42,144 bases of DNA. It comes from Akkermansiaceae bacterium. GTDB lineage: Bacteria; Verrucomicrobiota; Verrucomicrobiia; Verrucomicrobiales; Akkermansiaceae. This document shows positions 21,635 through 32,207 of this stretch, one piece after another. Location: contig CANHPN010000016.1 of NCBI GenBank assembly GCA_947462535.1, forward strand, positions 1-42,144. Reading direction: 5' to 3'. Each line of letters begins with the position of its first letter. Within the stretch, counting starts at the first letter, position 1. The position numbers were made by a program, and so were the translations under genes. The notes under the pieces are model-generated. The model worked only from the letters and a program-made list of their open reading frames with translations. It was not told where the DNA came from and did not search any database.

Positions 21635-24124
21635 ATGAAAGTCATCCACTATCCCCGTTTCGCTTTCACCGCCATCTCCATGGCTGCCCTGTCAACGTTT
21701 GCGCTGTCAGTCCAAGCGGCCCCGCAGGATCTCACTGCGCCGGGCGTGATCGCCACGATCAACCGCGATCTAACCTACAATCTGGGCGCGACCGGCCTGC
21801 GTGGCTGGATCCATACCAAGGCAGCGGACAATCTCGATGCCGCGCAGGGCCGCACCACTTTGGCCAGTCGTCAGATTCTGGTCACCCACGTCGGCATCGG
21901 CTCACCGGCCGATGGCGTTGTGAAAGTGGATGACGTGATTCTCGGAGTGGATGGTAAGCCTTTCAACGATGATGCGCGTAAGAGCTTCGCATGGGCCATT
22001 CAAGCAGCGGAGACCGAAGCCAAAGGTGGAGTGCTGAAGCTAACAGTTTCACGCGATGGCCAAAACCAGGAGCTTTCCATCAAACTTGCGGCGCTGGGAA
22101 CCTACAGCGCTACCGCCCCGTGGGACTGCCCCAAATCCAAGCGCATCCTTGAAGCGGCCTGCAAGGTTCTTGAAAAAGAAGAACTCAAAGCGGATTGGGC
22201 CGGCCCGATCCAAGGGCTCGCCCTGCTTGCCACGGGAAATCCCGAATACCTGCCGAAAGTCCAGCAGTTCGCCCGGAGTCTCGCCGCCATCGAAGTGGAC
22301 CCGGACCAAAAGCCCGCAGGACCCATTTGGGGCAACACCTGGTATACAGGTAACCGCAATTTGTTTCTCTGCGAGTATTTCCTCGTGACCCGCGACCAGG
22401 AAGTGCTTCCCGCGATCACTAAAACGACTCTCATGCTGGCCCGCGGCCAAAGCATGTATGGCACCTTCGGCCATGGCTTCGCCGCACTCACCAAGGATGG
22501 GAAATTCAACGGTTCGGTGCCGCCCTACGGGCCTGTGAATAGTGCCGGACTGCCTGCGAACCTGTCCATCGTGTTAGGCAAAAAGTGCGGGGTTAAAAGC
22601 CCTGAAGTGGATCAAGCAATTACCCGGGCCGCCGGGTTCTTTGGCTATTATGCGGACAAGGGCGCGATTCCCTACGGCGAACACGCGCCGTGGCCGTATC
22701 ATGAAAACAACGGCAAAAACGCGCTCTGCGCCTTGATGTTTGGCGCGATGGGCGACAAGCCGAAGGAGACGGAGTTTTTCGCCCGCATGGCCACCGCGGG
22801 TTATGCCAACCGCGAACACGGTCACACCGGGCAGGGCTTCGGCTACCTGTGGAGCGCCCTCGGAGCCGCTGTCGGCGGGCCAGAGACGGCGGCCGCGTTT
22901 TTCCACAAGGCCTCATGGCACCTCGACCTCGTGCGCCGGTCGGACGGCGCGTTCACTTATGACGGCGGCGAGCAATTCGGCCCGGGAAAAACCGATGATA
23001 ATACCTACTTTGGGAACAGCAGTTACAACGGATTGAGTCCCGCCGCCACTTATGTGCTCACCTATGCCCTTCCCTTGCGCAAACTGGTCATCACCGGCCG
23101 CGATGCGGATTCATCCGGTTGGCTTGACAAGGAACAGGCCGCCCGCGTCATCGCTTCCGGGCAATTCGATCTGGACCGGCGGCAAATGTCCCCGGCACAA
23201 CTGGTCGCGGCATTCGACGACTGGTCGCCCATCGTCCGCAGCTGGGCGGCGGAGGAGCTGGCGAAACGGCCGGAAAGCAAGACGATGATTCCAGAGTTGA
23301 TCAAACTCGCCGAAAGCAGCAATGCGCATCAGGTCCAAGGTGCCTGCGAGGCGCTGGGGCTCATCAACACTCCCGATGCTCTGCCAGTCTTAGTCAAACA
23401 ACTCTCCCATTCGGATCGCTGCGTGCGTTTCAAAGCCGCACATGCCATCAGTAAAATGGGCGGCACCGCCAAGCCCGCCTTGGAAGGCATTCTCAAGGCA
23501 CTGGTTTCCACAGCGGAGCCACTATCACCGATCCGCTGGGAGGATCCTATACAATCGGCTCATGGCCAGTTGGCCTCCGCCGTATTCTCTGGCCCTCTGA
23601 AGGATGAACTCAACAAGGTGGACGCCAAGTTGCGCTATGCCGCCATCCGCTCCGTAGTCACCAATCCGGATGGCATGGCCCGTGCCACGCTCGAACATTG
23701 CTTCCAGAACCAACTCAGCGAGGAGGATGTCATTGCGCTCGCCCCGGACATTCTCGCCGCCGTGGAAAGCCCCAGCCCGGCAGACACCATGTTCAACAAT
23801 GTGATTCGCATGGCGGGCTTGAAGGCGCTCACCAAGTATCATTTCCAGGAAGGGATCGCTGCTGCCGTCGGTCTGGCGAAAACCCAGGGCGGGCACGGTA
23901 GCCAAACACGCACCGGCGAAATCATGAAGCTGATCACCGGCTACGGATACGCCGCCAAACCGCAGATCCCCGCACTCAGGAAAATCATCGAAAGCTTCAA
24001 TCGCGAGACAGAACGCGCGGAGTTTCCTCCGTCGTTGAATCTGGTCCGGGTGGGCGCGGTCGAGGATGCGATCCGAGCCATCGAAACGGCGACCACGCAG
24101 CCGGAATTGCGCAGCATCAAGTAA
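21635..24124 (+). CDS. Secreted PDZ and HEAT-like protein, DUF6288 type
   Basis: The 829-residue protein has a signal peptide (MKVIHYPRFAFTAISMAALS...VQA). A PDZ domain spans about residues 80-150 (VTHVGIGSPADGVVKVDDVI, GVDGKPFNDD). An alpha-helical middle contains histidine- and glycine-rich motifs (QSMYGTFGHGFAAL, REHGHTGQGFGYLW, WHLDLVRRSDGAFTYDGGEQ, TYFGNSSYNGLSPAATYVL). The C-terminal third is HEAT-like (LPVLVKQLSHSDRCVRFKAA). This matches large DUF6288 proteins of Verrucomicrobia and Planctomycetes, whose function is not established. The barrel-like middle resembles alpha/alpha-toroid carbohydrate enzymes, so a role in polysaccharide processing is possible but unproven. A related fragment may lie at 27226-27510. 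Confidence 0.75.
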   Translation: MKVIHYPRFAFTAISMAALSTFALSVQAAPQDLTAPGVIATINRDLTYNLGATGLRGWIHTKAADNLDAAQGRTTLASRQILVTHVGIGSPADGVVKVDDVILGVDGKPFNDDARKSFAWAIQAAETEAKGGVLKLTVSRDGQNQELSIKLAALGTYSATAPWDCPKSKRILEAACKVLEKEELKADWAGPIQGLALLATGNPEYLPKVQQFARSLAAIEVDPDQKPAGPIWGNTWYTGNRNLFLCEYFLVTRDQEVLPAITKTTLMLARGQSMYGTFGHGFAALTKDGKFNGSVPPYGPVNSAGLPANLSIVLGKKCGVKSPEVDQAITRAAGFFGYYADKGAIPYGEHAPWPYHENNGKNALCALMFGAMGDKPKETEFFARMATAGYANREHGHTGQGFGYLWSALGAAVGGPETAAAFFHKASWHLDLVRRSDGAFTYDGGEQFGPGKTDDNTYFGNSSYNGLSPAATYVLTYALPLRKLVITGRDADSSGWLDKEQAARVIASGQFDLDRRQMSPAQLVAAFDDWSPIVRSWAAEELAKRPESKTMIPELIKLAESSNAHQVQGACEALGLINTPDALPVLVKQLSHSDRCVRFKAAHAISKMGGTAKPALEGILKALVSTAEPLSPIRWEDPIQSAHGQLASAVFSGPLKDELNKVDAKLRYAAIRSVVTNPDGMARATLEHCFQNQLSEEDVIALAPDILAAVESPSPADTMFNNVIRMAGLKALTKYHFQEGIAAAVGLAKTQGGHGSQTRTGEIMKLITGYGYAAKPQIPALRKIIESFNRETERAEFPPSLNLVRVGAVEDAIRAIETATTQPELRSIK

Positions 24125-24401: not shown

Positions 24402-25871
24402 ATGAATTCACGATGGATCCACCATTTGTCAGGCGCTCTCATGATTTCCACACTGCAAGGCGCGGAAAACTTCTGGGATGAGATACCGCTGTCTCCGAGC
24501 ACCACGCGGCCATCCGTGGTGCTGGATGATTACTGGAACAGCGAGTTTCAAAGGATCAACCGCGAGGTAGCTGCCGCACAAAACACCCGGCTCGTCTTCT
24601 TCGGCGATTCGATCACTTGGTCATGGTCGCTCGGACCCGCCACCGGTCGGGAGATTTGGGAGAATCAATTCAAAGATCATCATCCCATCAATATGGGAAA
24701 CTCCGGCGACATTACTCCGGTCATGCTTCACCGCGTGACCCGTGGCAATCTTGATTTCCCCGCTGGCAGGCATCCCAAAGTCGCGGTGATACTGTGTGGC
24801 ATCAACAACTTTGGCGTGAATCATAGCGCCGGTGGCAGGGAAAAGTGGGACTTGGGTCCCGACTGTCCGCTGGAGGAAATCGCCCAAGGGCAAAGGGCGA
24901 TTGCCCAAGTGTTTCGCCGCAAGCTGCCGCAAACCCGAGTGATCATGATGGCATTGCTACCCGTCGAGGATCGCGCAAAGTGGCAAAAATGCCAACGCGT
25001 CAACGCGATCAACGCCAGCCTCGCACTTGATGGCAACGAGGTGGCCTTCGTCAACTTGCAGGACAGCTTCCTCCAGCCCGACGGCACCATCAACAAGGTC
25101 TTGTTTACAGACGGCATTCATCTCACCAAAGAGGGCTATCAGGCATGGGAAAAAGGCATTTCCCCCGTCATCGGAGAATTCATGAAAGCGCCTCCGCTCG
25201 CGCCGGTGAAAATCATGCTGATCGGCGGCTCCGCTACTGAAGGTATCGACTCAAGCACTTCTTACAGGAGATATCTGGATGGAATGATACGACGTAGCGG
25301 ACATCTGAGCGACTTCGTCGGCAGTCGGTGCAAACACAAGGACGGCACGGCTGAGCCGGACAGTTACCAATTCGACCCCGATCACGAGGGGCACTGGGGC
25401 AAGGACTCGGCCTGGCTCGCTGACAACATGCCCCGCCTGTTGGAAAGCAACGTGCCCGATGTGGGGGTGATACATCTCGGAGCCGAGGATATCCTTGCGA
25501 GCAAGACGGAAGCCGAACCTCTGACCGATGGCATCATCAAGAACATCGGCCGGGTAATCACAGCGCTGCGTTTGAAAAACGCAAAGGTGAAAATCGTGAT
25601 CGCGGAAAACCTTCCTGTCAGAGGCCGCGAGGAAACGTGCGTCCTGCTCAATCAGAAAATCTCCCGGCTCGCCCGCTCATCCGCGTCCACCCTGTCACCG
25701 GTGGTGTTTGCTGAAGCAAATCAGCGTTTTGAACTAAATCATGACATGGTCAAAGACGACGCGTTGCCCAGCGCGGCCGGAGCCAGGAAAATTGCCGGTA
25801 ATCTATCAAAGGCAATCAACACTTTGCTCGGAGCTTCCTCAAATCAAACAACTCCAAGTGTCGGCGACTGA
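24402..25871 (+). CDS. Tandem SGNH/GDSL hydrolase with a degenerate second domain
   Basis: The 489-residue protein starts with a probable signal (MNSRWIHHLSGALMISTLQG). Domain 1 (about residues 40-265) is a complete SGNH esterase: FFGDSITWSW (Ser), NMGNSGD, CGINNFG (Asn) and DGIHLTKEGYQ (Asp, His). Domain 2 (about 267-475) has the same order of blocks but altered ones. GGSATEG stands for GDS, GAEDI for GTND, and DDALPSAAGARKIA for the usual D-G-V-H-P-S-A-A-G. The catalytic His and the oxyanion Asn are therefore missing. Domain 1 probably removes acyl groups from glycans; domain 2 may bind rather than cleave. The stop codon coincides with the first bases of an IS end, so the native C-terminus may have differed. 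Confidence 0.8.
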   Translation: MNSRWIHHLSGALMISTLQGAENFWDEIPLSPSTTRPSVVLDDYWNSEFQRINREVAAAQNTRLVFFGDSITWSWSLGPATGREIWENQFKDHHPINMGNSGDITPVMLHRVTRGNLDFPAGRHPKVAVILCGINNFGVNHSAGGREKWDLGPDCPLEEIAQGQRAIAQVFRRKLPQTRVIMMALLPVEDRAKWQKCQRVNAINASLALDGNEVAFVNLQDSFLQPDGTINKVLFTDGIHLTKEGYQAWEKGISPVIGEFMKAPPLAPVKIMLIGGSATEGIDSSTSYRRYLDGMIRRSGHLSDFVGSRCKHKDGTAEPDSYQFDPDHEGHWGKDSAWLADNMPRLLESNVPDVGVIHLGAEDILASKTEAEPLTDGIIKNIGRVITALRLKNAKVKIVIAENLPVRGREETCVLLNQKISRLARSSASTLSPVVFAEANQRFELNHDMVKDDALPSAAGARKIAGNLSKAINTLLGASSNQTTPSVGD

Positions 25872-25906
25872 GCAAAAGTGGATTTAATTGTCTGAGCAAA
25901 AATGGA
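25869..25906. repeat. Terminal direct repeats of the IS remnant
   Basis: Two 14-nt copies differ at one position and are spaced 24 bp start to start. The first copy's TGA also acts as the stop codon of the SGNH gene. Confidence 0.6.
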
Positions 25907-25932
25907 CAGGTATTCATGATCTTCAGGGCGGC

Positions 25933-26160
25933 TTAAAGTCGGTATTCGGCGAGGATGTCGGGCCACTCCGGTTCTAGGGGCGTAGGCTGGCGGGCAATGA
26001 CTCGGAAGCTTCCCGGTTGTTGGAGAATGGTCACCTGCTTGGTTTCGCCGGGTGTGATCTTCCAGCGGCGGCCCAGGAAGCTGATCTCTCCGGCTTTCTG
26101 GACAACCCGGGTGTGGTGGGTCGCCAGATGCAGATCGAGGAGCTCTAAGGCGGTGCCGGG
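25933..26160 (-). pseudogene. C-terminus of an integrase-type transposase
   Basis: The minus-strand frame ends LEPEWPDILAEYRL at 25933. Upstream of that are VVQKAGEISFLGRRWKITPG, then ETKQVTILQQPGSFRVIARQ. A short beta-rich module with 'G-x-I-x-F-x-G-R-x-W' is what the C-terminal beta-barrel of rve-type transposases looks like. The catalytic core and N-terminal DNA-binding domain are absent, so this is a dead fragment. The frame stays open to about 26364, but the part beyond 26160 is opposite other recognisable sequence. Assignment is by pattern only. Confidence 0.45.
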
Positions 26161-26268
26161 CGCCAAGCAACTGCTTTCGGTGAACTCATTCCCTATGTCA
26201 GGCTGCAATATGATCACAACGGTGACTCCACTCTCAAGAAAATCTTCGACGACCGGGTTTGCCGCTAG

Positions 26269-27657: not shown

Positions 27658-30600
27658 TTAAGGCACTGCGATTTCAGCCCTCATGAACTGGTGTGGTTGG
27701 TTCCGCAGCGGCGAGGCGCTTCTGAAGAGTAGGTGGGTTGGCTCATCCTCGGCCACCACGCAGGCCGGTTCGCCTTGCGACCATGATGAAAGGTTCTCCG
27801 ACACGGCGCCAACGATCTGGACGCTCCTACGGGCGTCACGGGGCACCCGGTATTCCAGAAAAGAGTCCTGTCCCTGCACGGTAATTCGCCCCTCGGAACG
27901 CGCGACCGACGATGATATAAGGGGGTTGGTCCCGAAGGCATACTCCCACAAGTTCGTCTGTCCGTCGCCGTCGGCATCGGTGTTCCATTGGCTGGACGGC
28001 GCGATGAGGTTTGGATCGGCGGCACCAAAAGTCCTGAAACGCCAGGAATCCGGCGTGAGCAGATCCACCGGATTCACCGCGCCCGTATCGCCGAGCGAAT
28101 TGTAAGCGGAGACTTGCAGAACGATGTCCTCCACACCCGCGTCCACCGGGACGGTGCTGGTGGTAACGCCGAATGACTTTTCATCGATAATCTGGAACGG
28201 GCCTCCGTTGACGGATTTTTGAATGATGTATCCAAGCTCGTTGTTGGCGGCACCGGCCCAGTTGAGTTTGACCTGGTTGACTCCTTGGAACTGCACTTGC
28301 AGTGAATGCGGCGGTTGAGGCGCGGCGGCCGGGGCGGGTGAGAACTCCTTGGAGCTGTCGCCGAACTGTCGGAACGGGCGGCCGGGAATGCCGCCGATGT
28401 AGTTGGCGAGGCGTTTCTTGAGGTGGTAGGTCGTGGCGGGCTCTTGACCAAAGATATTGGTGTTCTCGTTCGGATCGGTGCTCAGGTTGTAGAGCTGGTC
28501 GTCGTCGAAGTAGGTCGGGTTGGTTGACGCGACACCCTCTCCAAGGCCACTGTTGTTGAGGTAATAAGGTCGCGGGATCGTTCCGCTGGTCGGCTGCGAA
28601 TTGAGATCGGTTCGCGTCCAAAGATAACCATTCGCGATCTTGGTGTAGACATCGGGGTCGTAGCGAACGGCGATATATTTGCGGGTCTTGGTGCGGACGG
28701 CACGGGCGTAGCCGATCTCGCCGAACACGTCGCTACGCACCGCCGCGCTGCTGCCGTTGAAGACCGGCACCAAGCTGACGCCATCCACCGGACGGGTCGG
28801 CAGGTTGGAAGCTCCGGCGAGCGCGAGCAGCGTCGATCCGATGTCCACATGGCTGACCAATTCGTTGTAGGCACGGCCGGGATTGGTGATGCCATTCGGC
28901 CAGTTCATCACGAGCGGCACCTTCAGGCCCAGGTCGTAGAGCGAGGTTTTGCCCCAGACAAGTGGGCCGGAAAGTGTCTTCTCGCCGTGGTCGGAGGTGA
29001 AGATGATCAGCGTGTCGTTGCGAATGCCGTATGCGGTGAGCCTGTCGAGGATGGCCTTGACCGAGTGGTCGAGCCAGGTCTCGCGGGCGGAGATCAGGTC
29101 CTTGCCGGCGGCTTCCACCTGAGTGATGATCGACGAGCGCGTGGGCATGAACGAGTAGTCCTCGTTGGGCAGGTAGCCGGCGCTGGTGTAGGCCTTGTTG
29201 GCACGCAGCGTGAAGTCGAGGTTGTTGTTGACCGGCCCGTGATTGATGGTGGGTGCCATGTAGAGGAAGAAACGCTCGTTGCGGTTTTCCTCGATGAAAT
29301 TCAGGGCGCGGCTGGTGATCCACTCCTGATTGTGGACGTTCAGCTTATCATTCCAGAGTTCCTTGAGGTTGGCGTGGTAGAAGCCGTCGACATAATCGAA
29401 GCCCAGCGCGCGCATGTTCTGGCAGACGACGCGGTGGTTGTGCTGCATGGCCGCGTTGACTGCGGCATCGGTGGCTGGATCGGCTGTCTTGCTGTAGGTG
29501 ATGAGTCCCTTTGATGTCCAATTGGCGGTTGCTCCCAACTCGTCATCGAGCACGTGGGATTTTCCGACAAAGCCGGTGCGGTAGCCGGCCTGCTGCAGCC
29601 AGGCACCGATGTTCTGGCCGTCATGCTCCAACTCGGTGTCCGACACGCCGAAGCGGCCGAGGGTGTTGAGTGGGTACTTCGCGATGAAGTTCTCGCTGGT
29701 GTTGCGCGAGGGCCAGCGGCTGGTGAGCAGCGAATAGCGCGAAGAGCCGCAGACAGCAGAGGAGCAGAATCCCAAGTTGAATTTCAGACCATTGGCGACC
29801 AACGCATCCAGCGTCGGCGTGATGCAATTCCTGCCATCAAAGCCGAAGTGCTGGTCTGCTGCCATATCGTCCGTGTTGATGATGATGATGTTAGGCCCGC
29901 TGGCGGCGGTCTGGGCCTTCACCTCGTAGTAGATGGAGGTGGTGGTGGCTACCAATTCGAGCCGGCGATTAGAAGGCAGGTCGAAATTGCGGGTGCGAAT
30001 GGCGTTCGTACTGCCGGAGAAAGAGCCGAAGTTTGCCAGCACGAAACGGTCGCCGATGTTGTAGGAACCGGTGAAATTGGTGCCATCGACAATCCACTGC
30101 GAGCCGAGATCGAGGACCAGTTTGGCCGCGCCGAGTTCGAGCGGCTCGCTGCCGCCCGAGTCAGGCTTGGTTTCCACGGTGGCGGCGGAGCCGACCGCGA
30201 ACTCGTCGGCGGCGGATGAGCCGTTGTAGCCGAATGACACGCCCGAGCCACTGATCACGAGGCGGACGGTTTTGGTATTGTCGCGGCCGATGGTCATGGC
30301 GCGCATCGACAACGCGCCGCTGCCGGTCACGGTGAGCGAGCCGTTGGTGATGCGAAGTTCGTCAGGACTGACGGATGCCGCGCTGTTGAGAATGACATTG
30401 TGGCCATCGATGATTGCATCGGCGGGAGATGCAGGCACGTCATCGGGGTTCCAGTTGGTGGCGTTGGTCCACAGGTTGTTACCCGCGCCGTTGTCAAATC
30501 CTTCGGGTGCGGAAGGTGCGGTGACCGCGAAAGTGAAGCCGGCAATGCCCGCGCCGGTCGTCGCTCCCACCCCGGGAATTTCCTTGAATGTTAGGGACTG

Positions 30601-31860
30601 GCCATTGGCAAGTGGTAGGTCGGAGAGCCCAAGTGTCCCGTTGGCTGCTGTCATGTTGGCGAAGTCGCTGTTAGTCGTTCCGCTCGAAACACGGATGTCC
30701 CCGCCAACACCCTCGACGTAGGACCAACTCTTGAAAACCAAATCCAAGCCGGGCGGCGCATCGAGGGTCCAGGTGAGGGTCTCCGGGGTGGAGGTGGCGT
30801 CTCCTGTGCCGTAGTTCAAGCCATCGACCCGGTTCGAGTTCTCACCCTGGATGCCGATGCCTCCTCCCCCCAGTTCGGTGATGGTGAGACTTGTTCCGCC
30901 GGATTGACTACCGACCAGGGTGAAGGATTGCCCGAAAAGCGTGGGATTCGCGACCGAGCCGACGTTGGACTTGTCCCACTCCGCGACCATGGTGGCGAAC
31001 CCGCCGTTGGTGCTGGTGGTGGACGCGTCGAGAGAAATCACTCCGGTGCCATTGATCGAGAAGCCCAGCGTGATGGTCGCGGTGCTGGCACTGGCTGTGA
31101 TCCACGACGTGAAGCCGGTCCCGCTGTTGGCGAAGCTCACGACCGCATCGTTGGCGGTCACCGGGGCGCTGAGGATGTCGAAGGTGAACCCACCGAGGCC
31201 CGCTCCGTTGCTGGAATCCGGGGTTTCGCCAAAGGACAGAGAGTCGCCGTTGCCCAGGCTGAGCACATTGGTCACGAGGCCGAATGCGGTGCTGCCCGAC
31301 GCCGCCAAGTTGGCAAAATCCTGAAGGTTCGTGCCATTGGAAAAACGCATGTCCGCTCCGGATCCGCTCACCCATGACCAGGATTTGAACTGCAGAATCA
31401 TCCCTGCCGGCGCGGTCAGTTCGAATTTCAGCGTCTCTGGGGCACTCGTAGTGGCCGTCCGACCGTCCACGCGGTTCGAATCCTGTCCCTGCACGCCGAG
31501 GCCGCCGCCATTGAGAGTGGTGATGCTCAGGTTCGGGCTCGACGACCTCACCGGCACGATTTTGAGGCTGAACGAGGTGTTGAAGAAACCGCTGTTGGTC
31601 GTGGAGCCCGCCGTGCCGCTTAGCCGGTCGAACTGGTTGACCAGATTGATGAAGGTGGCGTTGGCGTTGGTGGTGGAGGCATTTAGTGAAACCGCCCCCG
31701 CTCCGTCGATGGTATAGGCGAGGGTGATGGTATCGTTGATCGCTGCCGTGAGAAAAGTCCCGGTGGTCACAGGGCCGGTGTTGGCAAAGCTCGTGCTGAC
31801 ATCCGCCTTAGCCGTCAGAGCGGGCAATGCGCAGATGAAAAGAAGGGATTTGATGTTCAT
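27658..31860 (-). CDS. Large multidomain secreted sulfatase
   Basis: The 1400-residue protein starts MNIKSLLFICALPALTAKA (signal peptide); the frame extends 15 codons upstream without a better start. Two tandem copies of one ~220-residue beta-sandwich follow, sharing GVQGQDSNRVDG/GIQGENSNRVDG and FKSWSWVSGSGAD/FKSWSYVEGVGGD. Next is a passenger-like beta segment (WTNATNWNPDDVPASPADAI). The sulfatase domain runs from about residue 665, with NIIIINTDDMAADQHFG for metal binding. AVCGSSRYSLLTSR carries Cys704 for formylglycine, and FTSDHGEKTLSG plus GKTSLYDLGLKVP complete the site. A fibronectin III-like domain and a DADGDGQTNLWEYAFGTNP calcium-type repeat lead to a C-terminal beta module. It probably desulfates polysaccharides outside the cell. 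The FGly motif has Ser where Pro is usual. Confidence 0.88.
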   Translation of the reverse strand: MNIKSLLFICALPALTAKADVSTSFANTGPVTTGTFLTAAINDTITLAYTIDGAGAVSLNASTTNANATFINLVNQFDRLSGTAGSTTNSGFFNTSFSLKIVPVRSSSPNLSITTLNGGGLGVQGQDSNRVDGRTATTSAPETLKFELTAPAGMILQFKSWSWVSGSGADMRFSNGTNLQDFANLAASGSTAFGLVTNVLSLGNGDSLSFGETPDSSNGAGLGGFTFDILSAPVTANDAVVSFANSGTGFTSWITASASTATITLGFSINGTGVISLDASTTSTNGGFATMVAEWDKSNVGSVANPTLFGQSFTLVGSQSGGTSLTITELGGGGIGIQGENSNRVDGLNYGTGDATSTPETLTWTLDAPPGLDLVFKSWSYVEGVGGDIRVSSGTTNSDFANMTAANGTLGLSDLPLANGQSLTFKEIPGVGATTGAGIAGFTFAVTAPSAPEGFDNGAGNNLWTNATNWNPDDVPASPADAIIDGHNVILNSAASVSPDELRITNGSLTVTGSGALSMRAMTIGRDNTKTVRLVISGSGVSFGYNGSSAADEFAVGSAATVETKPDSGGSEPLELGAAKLVLDLGSQWIVDGTNFTGSYNIGDRFVLANFGSFSGSTNAIRTRNFDLPSNRRLELVATTTSIYYEVKAQTAASGPNIIIINTDDMAADQHFGFDGRNCITPTLDALVANGLKFNLGFCSSAVCGSSRYSLLTSRWPSRNTSENFIAKYPLNTLGRFGVSDTELEHDGQNIGAWLQQAGYRTGFVGKSHVLDDELGATANWTSKGLITYSKTADPATDAAVNAAMQHNHRVVCQNMRALGFDYVDGFYHANLKELWNDKLNVHNQEWITSRALNFIEENRNERFFLYMAPTINHGPVNNNLDFTLRANKAYTSAGYLPNEDYSFMPTRSSIITQVEAAGKDLISARETWLDHSVKAILDRLTAYGIRNDTLIIFTSDHGEKTLSGPLVWGKTSLYDLGLKVPLVMNWPNGITNPGRAYNELVSHVDIGSTLLALAGASNLPTRPVDGVSLVPVFNGSSAAVRSDVFGEIGYARAVRTKTRKYIAVRYDPDVYTKIANGYLWTRTDLNSQPTSGTIPRPYYLNNSGLGEGVASTNPTYFDDDQLYNLSTDPNENTNIFGQEPATTYHLKKRLANYIGGIPGRPFRQFGDSSKEFSPAPAAAPQPPHSLQVQFQGVNQVKLNWAGAANNELGYIIQKSVNGGPFQIIDEKSFGVTTSTVPVDAGVEDIVLQVSAYNSLGDTGAVNPVDLLTPDSWRFRTFGAADPNLIAPSSQWNTDADGDGQTNLWEYAFGTNPLISSSVARSEGRITVQGQDSFLEYRVPRDARRSVQIVGAVSENLSSWSQGEPACVVAEDEPTHLLFRSASPLRNQPHQFMRAEIAVP

Positions 31861-32207
31861 GAAGTGGATTGGGGGAAAATGAAATGGGTTTGATGGGGCA
31901 ATCACTTCTTTCGTATAGGGTAAATTTCACGGAGATTTCTCATAGTCCTCAAAGCGAGGACATCGATCGTATCTCTGGCCGGGGTTTCAAGCCGTTCAGT
32001 ATCGCTCAATCCAGAAGGATTTCCGGCCCGTCAGGTCGAACGAATGCTTCCCAGGTCGTTGGAAATGTCATCATTTTGAGGACTATCCGATTTCTGAAAA
32101 GCGGCGAACAATTCAACTTAGCAATAGCGGTTGAATACAACCGATTGGGGGCCTCCGAAGCCCTGTATTTGGTTACCTGTTTCGGCGGTAAAAGCACAAC
32201 GTACTCG
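31861..32207. promoter_or_regulatory. Divergent region between the sulfatase and glycoside hydrolase genes
   Basis: This 347-bp region should hold promoters for both genes. Two perfect small inverted repeats are visible. GTCCTC/GAGGAC lies at 31945-31961 with a 5-nt loop, and CGGTTG/CAACCG at 32128-32143 with a 4-nt loop. Either could be an operator. No gene is seen; frames extending the hydrolase upstream lack a signal peptide. Confidence 0.4.

Follow-up and report, generated by a model that had tools for sequence, protein, structure and literature searches.

The gene at positions 24402–25871 (+) of the window, a stretch of 42,144 nt from an Akkermansiaceae bacterium, encodes a 489-aa protein in which a complete SGNH hydrolase domain is followed by a second SGNH domain that lacks catalytic residues. 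Because this loss is common to 14 tandem proteins and the second domain is under purifying selection, the sequences lead us to conclude that selection has maintained this domain as a pseudo-enzyme, rather than its being a product of decay linked to a neighbouring IS-like element. The gene is a single open frame for which orthologues were found. Pfam recognized two GDSL stretches in the full-length protein: domain 1 (D1; 24471–25187, +), which is PAF-AH-like, and domain 2 (D2; 25188–25868, +), a CE3-derived pseudo-esterase. A preliminary description made from the sequence had placed D2 at 25201–25850, which is roughly right and falls slightly inside its actual, approximate extent. As judged by eye the N-terminal stretch resembles a signal peptide, and the two-domain protein is probably exported. 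Our comparisons cover 14 distinct tandem proteins (the window, L002, L021–L028 and L032–L035), with L029, L030, L031, L059 and L060 collapsed as repeats of other loci before counting. An isolated 42-residue D2 piece in genome G028 (L094, 3722–3847, minus strand), 71% identical and reading GTED at block III, was excluded from the counts; tblastn matched nothing else of the gene in that stretch of G028, a picture suggestive of a tandem gene that has been disrupted.

D1 matched Pfam Lipase_GDSL_2 at 1.2e-19 and PDB entry 3dt6 at 2.2e-15, and its predicted model superposed on 1vyh_A with a Z score of 25.3 (rmsd 2.2, 210 aligned). It carries the Ser, Gly, Asn and Asp/His blocks of a PAF-AH-like SGNH hydrolase, namely GDSIT in block I (Ser70; 24603–24617, +), Gly102 (24705–24707, +), CGINN in block III (Asn135; 24795–24809, +) and DGIHL in block V (Asp237 and His240; 25110–25124, +). 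These Ser, Gly, Asn, Asp and His residues were kept in 14/14 tandem rows and also in L003 and L004, the two orthologues that have a single domain, in keeping with the earlier statement that D1 is complete. The full catalytic set suggests that D1 is a working O-acetylesterase. Its nearest solved structures are the PAF-acetylhydrolase IB subunits (1wab, 1vyh), whose triad it keeps; unlike them, it comes from a bacterium, is apparently exported and has a pseudo-CE3 domain joined to it.

D2 was reported to keep the fold motifs VGSR (25317–25328, +), HEGHWG (25383–25400, +; the block II region, with Gly333) and PSAAG (25767–25781, +) and to have degenerate catalytic blocks, and all of these were found where they had been placed, in one open frame. 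Block I reads GGSATEG (25224–25244, +), block III reads GAED (25479–25490, +), with Glu362 replacing Asn, and block V reads DDALP (25755–25769, +), with Leu455 at the expected His. A phmmer alignment to the CE3 structure 5b5s set 'mliggsate' of D2 opposite 'mllgdsite' and 'vkddal.p' opposite 'lrddgvhp', from which it follows that Asn and His are missing and Ser277 is kept. The reported loss of the catalytic His and the oxyanion Asn was thus borne out; the replacement of GDS by GGS is also real, with the refinement that it changes Asp to Gly and leaves the nucleophile Ser itself in place in the window. Both Ser and Thr of the CE3 block I pattern GXSXT are present (GGSAT).

In spite of these losses, the relationship of D2 to CE3 is evident in both sequence and predicted fold. 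D2 matched 5b5s at 1.2e-16 and 2vpt at 2.3e-9, and its model superposed on 5b5s with a Z score of 23.3 (rmsd 2.8, 192 aligned). Structure prediction, proposed earlier as a check, gave SGNH folds for both domains, D1 close to 1vyh_A and D2 close to 5b5s, at a mean pLDDT of 71.7 for the window protein. Like the CE3 enzymes TcAE206 (PDB 5b5s) and CtCes3 (PDB 2vpt), D2 has the family's sequence, predicted fold and calcium-loop motif; unlike them, it has neither the block III Asn nor the block V His of an active member. With catalytic residues lost, the fold kept in the predicted model and selection maintaining it, D2 fits the description of a pseudo-esterase, and on its sequence it is a divergent CE3 derivative rather than a working CE3 member. 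Cut out alone, it scored 30.1 bits against Lipase_GDSL_2, under the 32.9 cut-off. Since Pfam assigns two GDSL stretches to the whole protein, domain searches may count D2 as a second acetylesterase, and it should not be so counted.

D1 and D2 match different solved structures and have no significant similarity by BLASTP (the best E value, 0.24, arises artefactually from six residues that the two cut pieces share), so that by sequence and predicted structure the protein is a fusion of different SGNH subfamilies, one PAF-AH-like and one CE3-like. A Foldseek search returned the same two families. Recent duplication of a single domain is ruled out by the same observations. In most tandem proteins the D2 profile also matched D1, weakly and over part of its length, as expected for two members of one superfamily. 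The proposed pairing of a complete with an inactive domain therefore stands, D1 being full and D2 without catalytic residues, and is recast as a fusion of two subfamilies.

The losses of Asn and His extend to all 14 of these tandem proteins and set them apart from their relatives. As controls we used 47 distinct non-tandem CE3-like relatives, collected with the same profile model and comprising only retrieved loci that passed the cut-offs. The block III Asn of D2 was found in 0/14 tandem proteins (Glu in 9, Asp in 3, Gly in 1 and a gap in 1), and the block V His likewise in 0/14, its place being taken by Leu in seven and by Val, Ser, Pro, Thr, Phe or Ala in the others. Ten of the 14 kept the nucleophile Ser, and two, L002 and L032, the full GDS; Ser was replaced by Thr in L033, by Leu in L025 and by Val in L026 and L034. 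Among the non-tandem relatives GDS and His were each present in 47/47 and Asn in 46/47, the exception being L067, whose Glu at the aligned position, although perhaps misaligned, was counted. Because this non-tandem protein shows Glu too, Glu at the Asn position is not by itself diagnostic of D2. The tandem rows are kin by descent and not independent, so the contrast with non-tandem proteins most likely marks one old event, not fourteen.

Tandem intermediates with an intact D2 were not seen among 386 genomes of the order, 260 of the family and 387 of the phylum, overlapping sets in which the best 7 to 11 candidates per genome were scored. Matches at the level of the tandem proteins (E ≤ 1.1e-57) occurred in 7/386, 6/260 and 1/387 genomes, respectively, the last being that of the window. 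Tandem architecture as a general cause of decay was rejected, because both triads persist in further SGNH-SGNH proteins of the order: motif patterns identified the two triads in L110, L111, L112 and L114, which make up four of six distinct two-domain proteins, and in the two L113 proteins the second block III gave no match to the pattern. Both halves of the L110–L114 tandems match the D1 profile. By the D1-profile model, L115–L117 have one domain each.

Local decay of the window copy was considered on account of an IS-like repeated stretch that abuts the gene (25859–26176, strand unassigned). The stretch has eight matches in the window's own genome, including the query itself; the longest other match covers 25860–26176 at 87%, and 26176 marks the far end of that match, so that the element may end at another point. 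Pfam searches of two of its frames gave nothing at E values up to 10. Identity with the L021 orthologue ends at about 25858, and the element contributes no more than the final codons of the gene. An IS-like end adjoining the gene is what decay after insertion would predict, but the same Asn and His are missing from all thirteen other tandem proteins, and L021 has the same GGS, GAED and DDALP with a different sequence where the element begins. As the D2 of L021 is equally degenerate without the element, decay caused by the insertion is ruled out, and we assign it a negligible probability. Homologues with a normal second triad, which the preliminary description had named as the sign of such decay, are absent from the 14 tandem proteins.

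The order of the losses can be read from the trees. In the D2 tree (61 rows) the tandem rows form one clade with support of 100/99. In the D1 tree (32 rows) they also group together, at 86/95, and the single-domain L003 and L004 fall outside this group; the D1 tree was flagged for long branches and resolves the twelve later members only in part. L002 diverges first in both trees and L032 second, ahead of the remaining twelve; the fork separating L002 has support of 98/63 for D2 and 96/95 for D1, and the group of twelve has 100/99 in both. On the simplest reading, the Asn and His of D2 were lost first, before the deepest tandem split, the Asp of GDS was lost next, on the branch leading to the twelve tandems other than L002 and L032, and Ser was lost last, from L033, L025 and the pair L026/L034. 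L032 has DDGMLP where the active CE3 5b5s has DDGVHP, so the change from His to Leu was likely an early one in D2.

Shortening accompanies these substitutions in part of the family. About 41 residues, in four in-frame pieces, are missing from L025–L028 and L034, at sites that directly follow block III and precede block V of the former active site, and the D2 of L035 has a different gap. The model of the shortened L025 D2 is still CE3-like (5b5s, Z 17.2, rmsd 2.8, 159 aligned; pLDDT 77.7). From GDS-bearing early branches to shortened, Ser-less domains, the tandem proteins form a series along which the conversion of an enzyme to a non-catalytic module can be replayed.

D2 is under purifying selection, although the constraint is looser than on D1 and falls chiefly on the first half of D2. 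Pairwise omega values, obtained by the Nei-Gojobori method with our own script, ranged from 0.195 to 0.277 in 11 non-independent D2 pairs and from 0.105 to 0.231 in the 10 computable D1 pairs, and were higher for D2 than for D1 in eight of the ten comparable pairs. Within D2, the N-terminal half up to GAED gave 0.097–0.216 and the C-terminal rest 0.193–0.553. In a crude neutral simulation (500 runs) covering 0.13 to 1.0 changes per site, a stop arose in D2 in 93% to 100% of cases; the chance of gaining none was 0.068 at 0.13 changes per site, 0.014 at 0.27 and 0/500 at 0.6. The open frames in all 14 proteins are due in part to their having been sampled as open frames, and a broken copy exists in G028.

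These data bear on whether D2 is vestigial and decaying slowly under relaxed constraint. The stepwise character of the losses, with GDS restricted to L002 and L032 and Ser gone from four later members, would be expected of a relic, as would the deletions in five members, the other gap in L035, the excess of D2 over D1 omega and the fragment in G028; the faster C-terminal half and the four missing stretches also fit relaxed selection and to that extent count against a role for D2. However, omega lies far under 1, the N-terminal half is constrained about as tightly as D1, and the deletions are in frame, which makes a vestigial D2 quite improbable.

Further evidence of constraint comes from the calcium loop. 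In CE3 the loop DFVGXnDXD holds a calcium ion through three Asp residues, and it is thought to be structural, as CtCes3 retains function with EDTA (PMC9487903, in excerpt), a point that weighs against the glycan-binding reading given below. D2 has the corresponding motif, as defined in that excerpt, at 25311–25382 (+; DFVG...DPD), and each of its residues Asp304, Asp325 and Asp327 is Asp in 14/14 tandem rows, compared with 11, 14 and 9 of the 47 non-tandem relatives, many of which have gaps at the second position. The motif suggests that D2 may bind calcium. Trp338 (25413–25415, +) is found in 14/14 tandem and 0/47 non-tandem rows, and His301 and His312 are each found in 14/14 tandem rows against 1/47 (24/47 being gapped at His312). 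Loss of catalysis alongside fixation of the calcium loop and tandem-specific residues is easier to reconcile with a module for binding or scaffolding than with a relic.

A purely structural D2, which would stabilise D1 or pair with it without binding any ligand, would also account for the calcium loop being among the best-kept parts of the domain. PAF-AH subunits can make a catalytic heterodimer (title of 1fxw), and the deletions in L025–L028 and L034, lying where the old active site was, are compatible with a partner of this kind. The tandem-only Trp338, His301 and His312, on the other hand, are not obviously packing residues, though buried positions could explain them, and the single-domain orthologues L003 and L004 lack D2, so D1 does not always depend on it. 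We consider a structural role of this kind unlikely. Residual catalysis, in which Ser277 would act with another base and an altered oxyanion hole, draws on the presence of Ser in 10/14 proteins, of an acidic residue for Asn in 12/14 and of conserved His residues elsewhere in D2. Yet 4/14 members of this one clade have lost even Ser while retaining both domains, and the position of the catalytic His is open to seven different residues, from Leu to Ala; a D2 that is still an enzyme is very improbable.

The gene neighbourhood fits action on an acetylated, perhaps sulfated, polysaccharide. Flanks were scanned at least partly for 13/14 tandem loci (partly for L022, L027 and L028; L035 was left out). 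The window has a DUF6288 gene upstream and a sulfatase gene downstream. A SASA-type carbohydrate esterase occurs in seven flanks (L002, L023, L025, L026, L032, L033 and L034) and a sulfatase in three (the window, L027 and L032), so that 9/13 have one or the other; against this argument, such neighbours are common in genomes of this kind. DUF6288 was found in three flanks (the window, L021 and L032), and a further match lies roughly 5 kb away from the tandem gene of L002; this neighbour carries little information because it is widespread, with matches in 36/59 related genomes and up to 27 in one. In the window, the DUF6288 gene (21635–24124) encodes a PDZ, DUF6288 and HEAT protein, and the sulfatase gene (27658–31905, −) a protein of 1415 aa with the sulfatase domain from about residue 671 and an N-terminal part that appears repetitive by eye. 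One SASA esterase adjoining a tandem gene (L099, 6743–11497, −) is a 1585-aa protein with matches to fibronectin-type and passenger-transport repeats.

Together, the calcium loop, the tandem-specific residues, the esterase and sulfatase neighbours and the precedent of PgaB suggest that D2 is probably a glycan-binding pseudo-esterase module; the preliminary description had allowed for either glycan binding or regulation of D1. In the mechanism we propose, a CE3 acetylesterase was fused to a PAF-AH-like esterase, and the resulting D2 had already lost the oxyanion Asn and the catalytic His by the time the known tandem lineages diverged, after which it was retained as a folded, non-catalytic domain. 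D1 would strip acetyl groups from a polymer that D2 holds or orients through its former substrate groove, and the calcium loop inherited from CE3 would make D2 rigid. Our confidence in this division of labour, deacetylation by D1 with a kept CE3-derived module positioning its acetylated substrate, is evenly divided. A step further, and offered tentatively as somewhat doubtful, D2 could found a new carbohydrate-binding module with a calcium-stabilised CE3 fold, in which Trp338, His301 and His312 would bind and for which L002 and L032 would show the order of events.

The closest working parallel to this proposal is PgaB, which joins a CE4 deacetylase to a dead CE4-like, glycan-binding C-terminal domain; a review of glycan-binding proteins, in the excerpt available, names that domain as its one example of a pseudoesterase (PMC7828330). 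Both proteins carry a complete esterase and an inactive esterase-like domain on the same chain, with a glycan polymer as substrate (here a predicted one); the differences are that PgaB is CE4 and not SGNH, and that glycan binding is reported for PgaB and predicted for D2. A single inactivating replacement in CtCE2 raised its affinity for cello-oligosaccharides nearly 8-fold (same excerpt of PMC7828330). The OSK domain of Oskar (PF17182) is an inactive SGNH domain (PMC2848206, in excerpt) of an RNA-binding family (PMC9487903, in excerpt). Like D2, it combines an SGNH fold and disrupted catalytic residues with a new role, and it shows that the fold can be reused after loss of the triad; unlike D2, it is animal, RNA-binding and without a fused active esterase. 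Neither a pseudo-CE3 domain nor a PAF-AH/CE3 fusion appeared among the matches listed for the SGNH/GDSL, CE3 and PAF-AH esterase literature, as far as the excerpts extend. 

The database titles of L022, L023 and L025–L028 name Akkermansia muciniphila, Klebsiella pneumoniae, Phycisphaerales and Planctomyces, and some of these are probably wrong. The proteins cluster tightly with one another and with that of the window, and the D2 of L022 is identical to the D2 of G378, a genome from the window's family.
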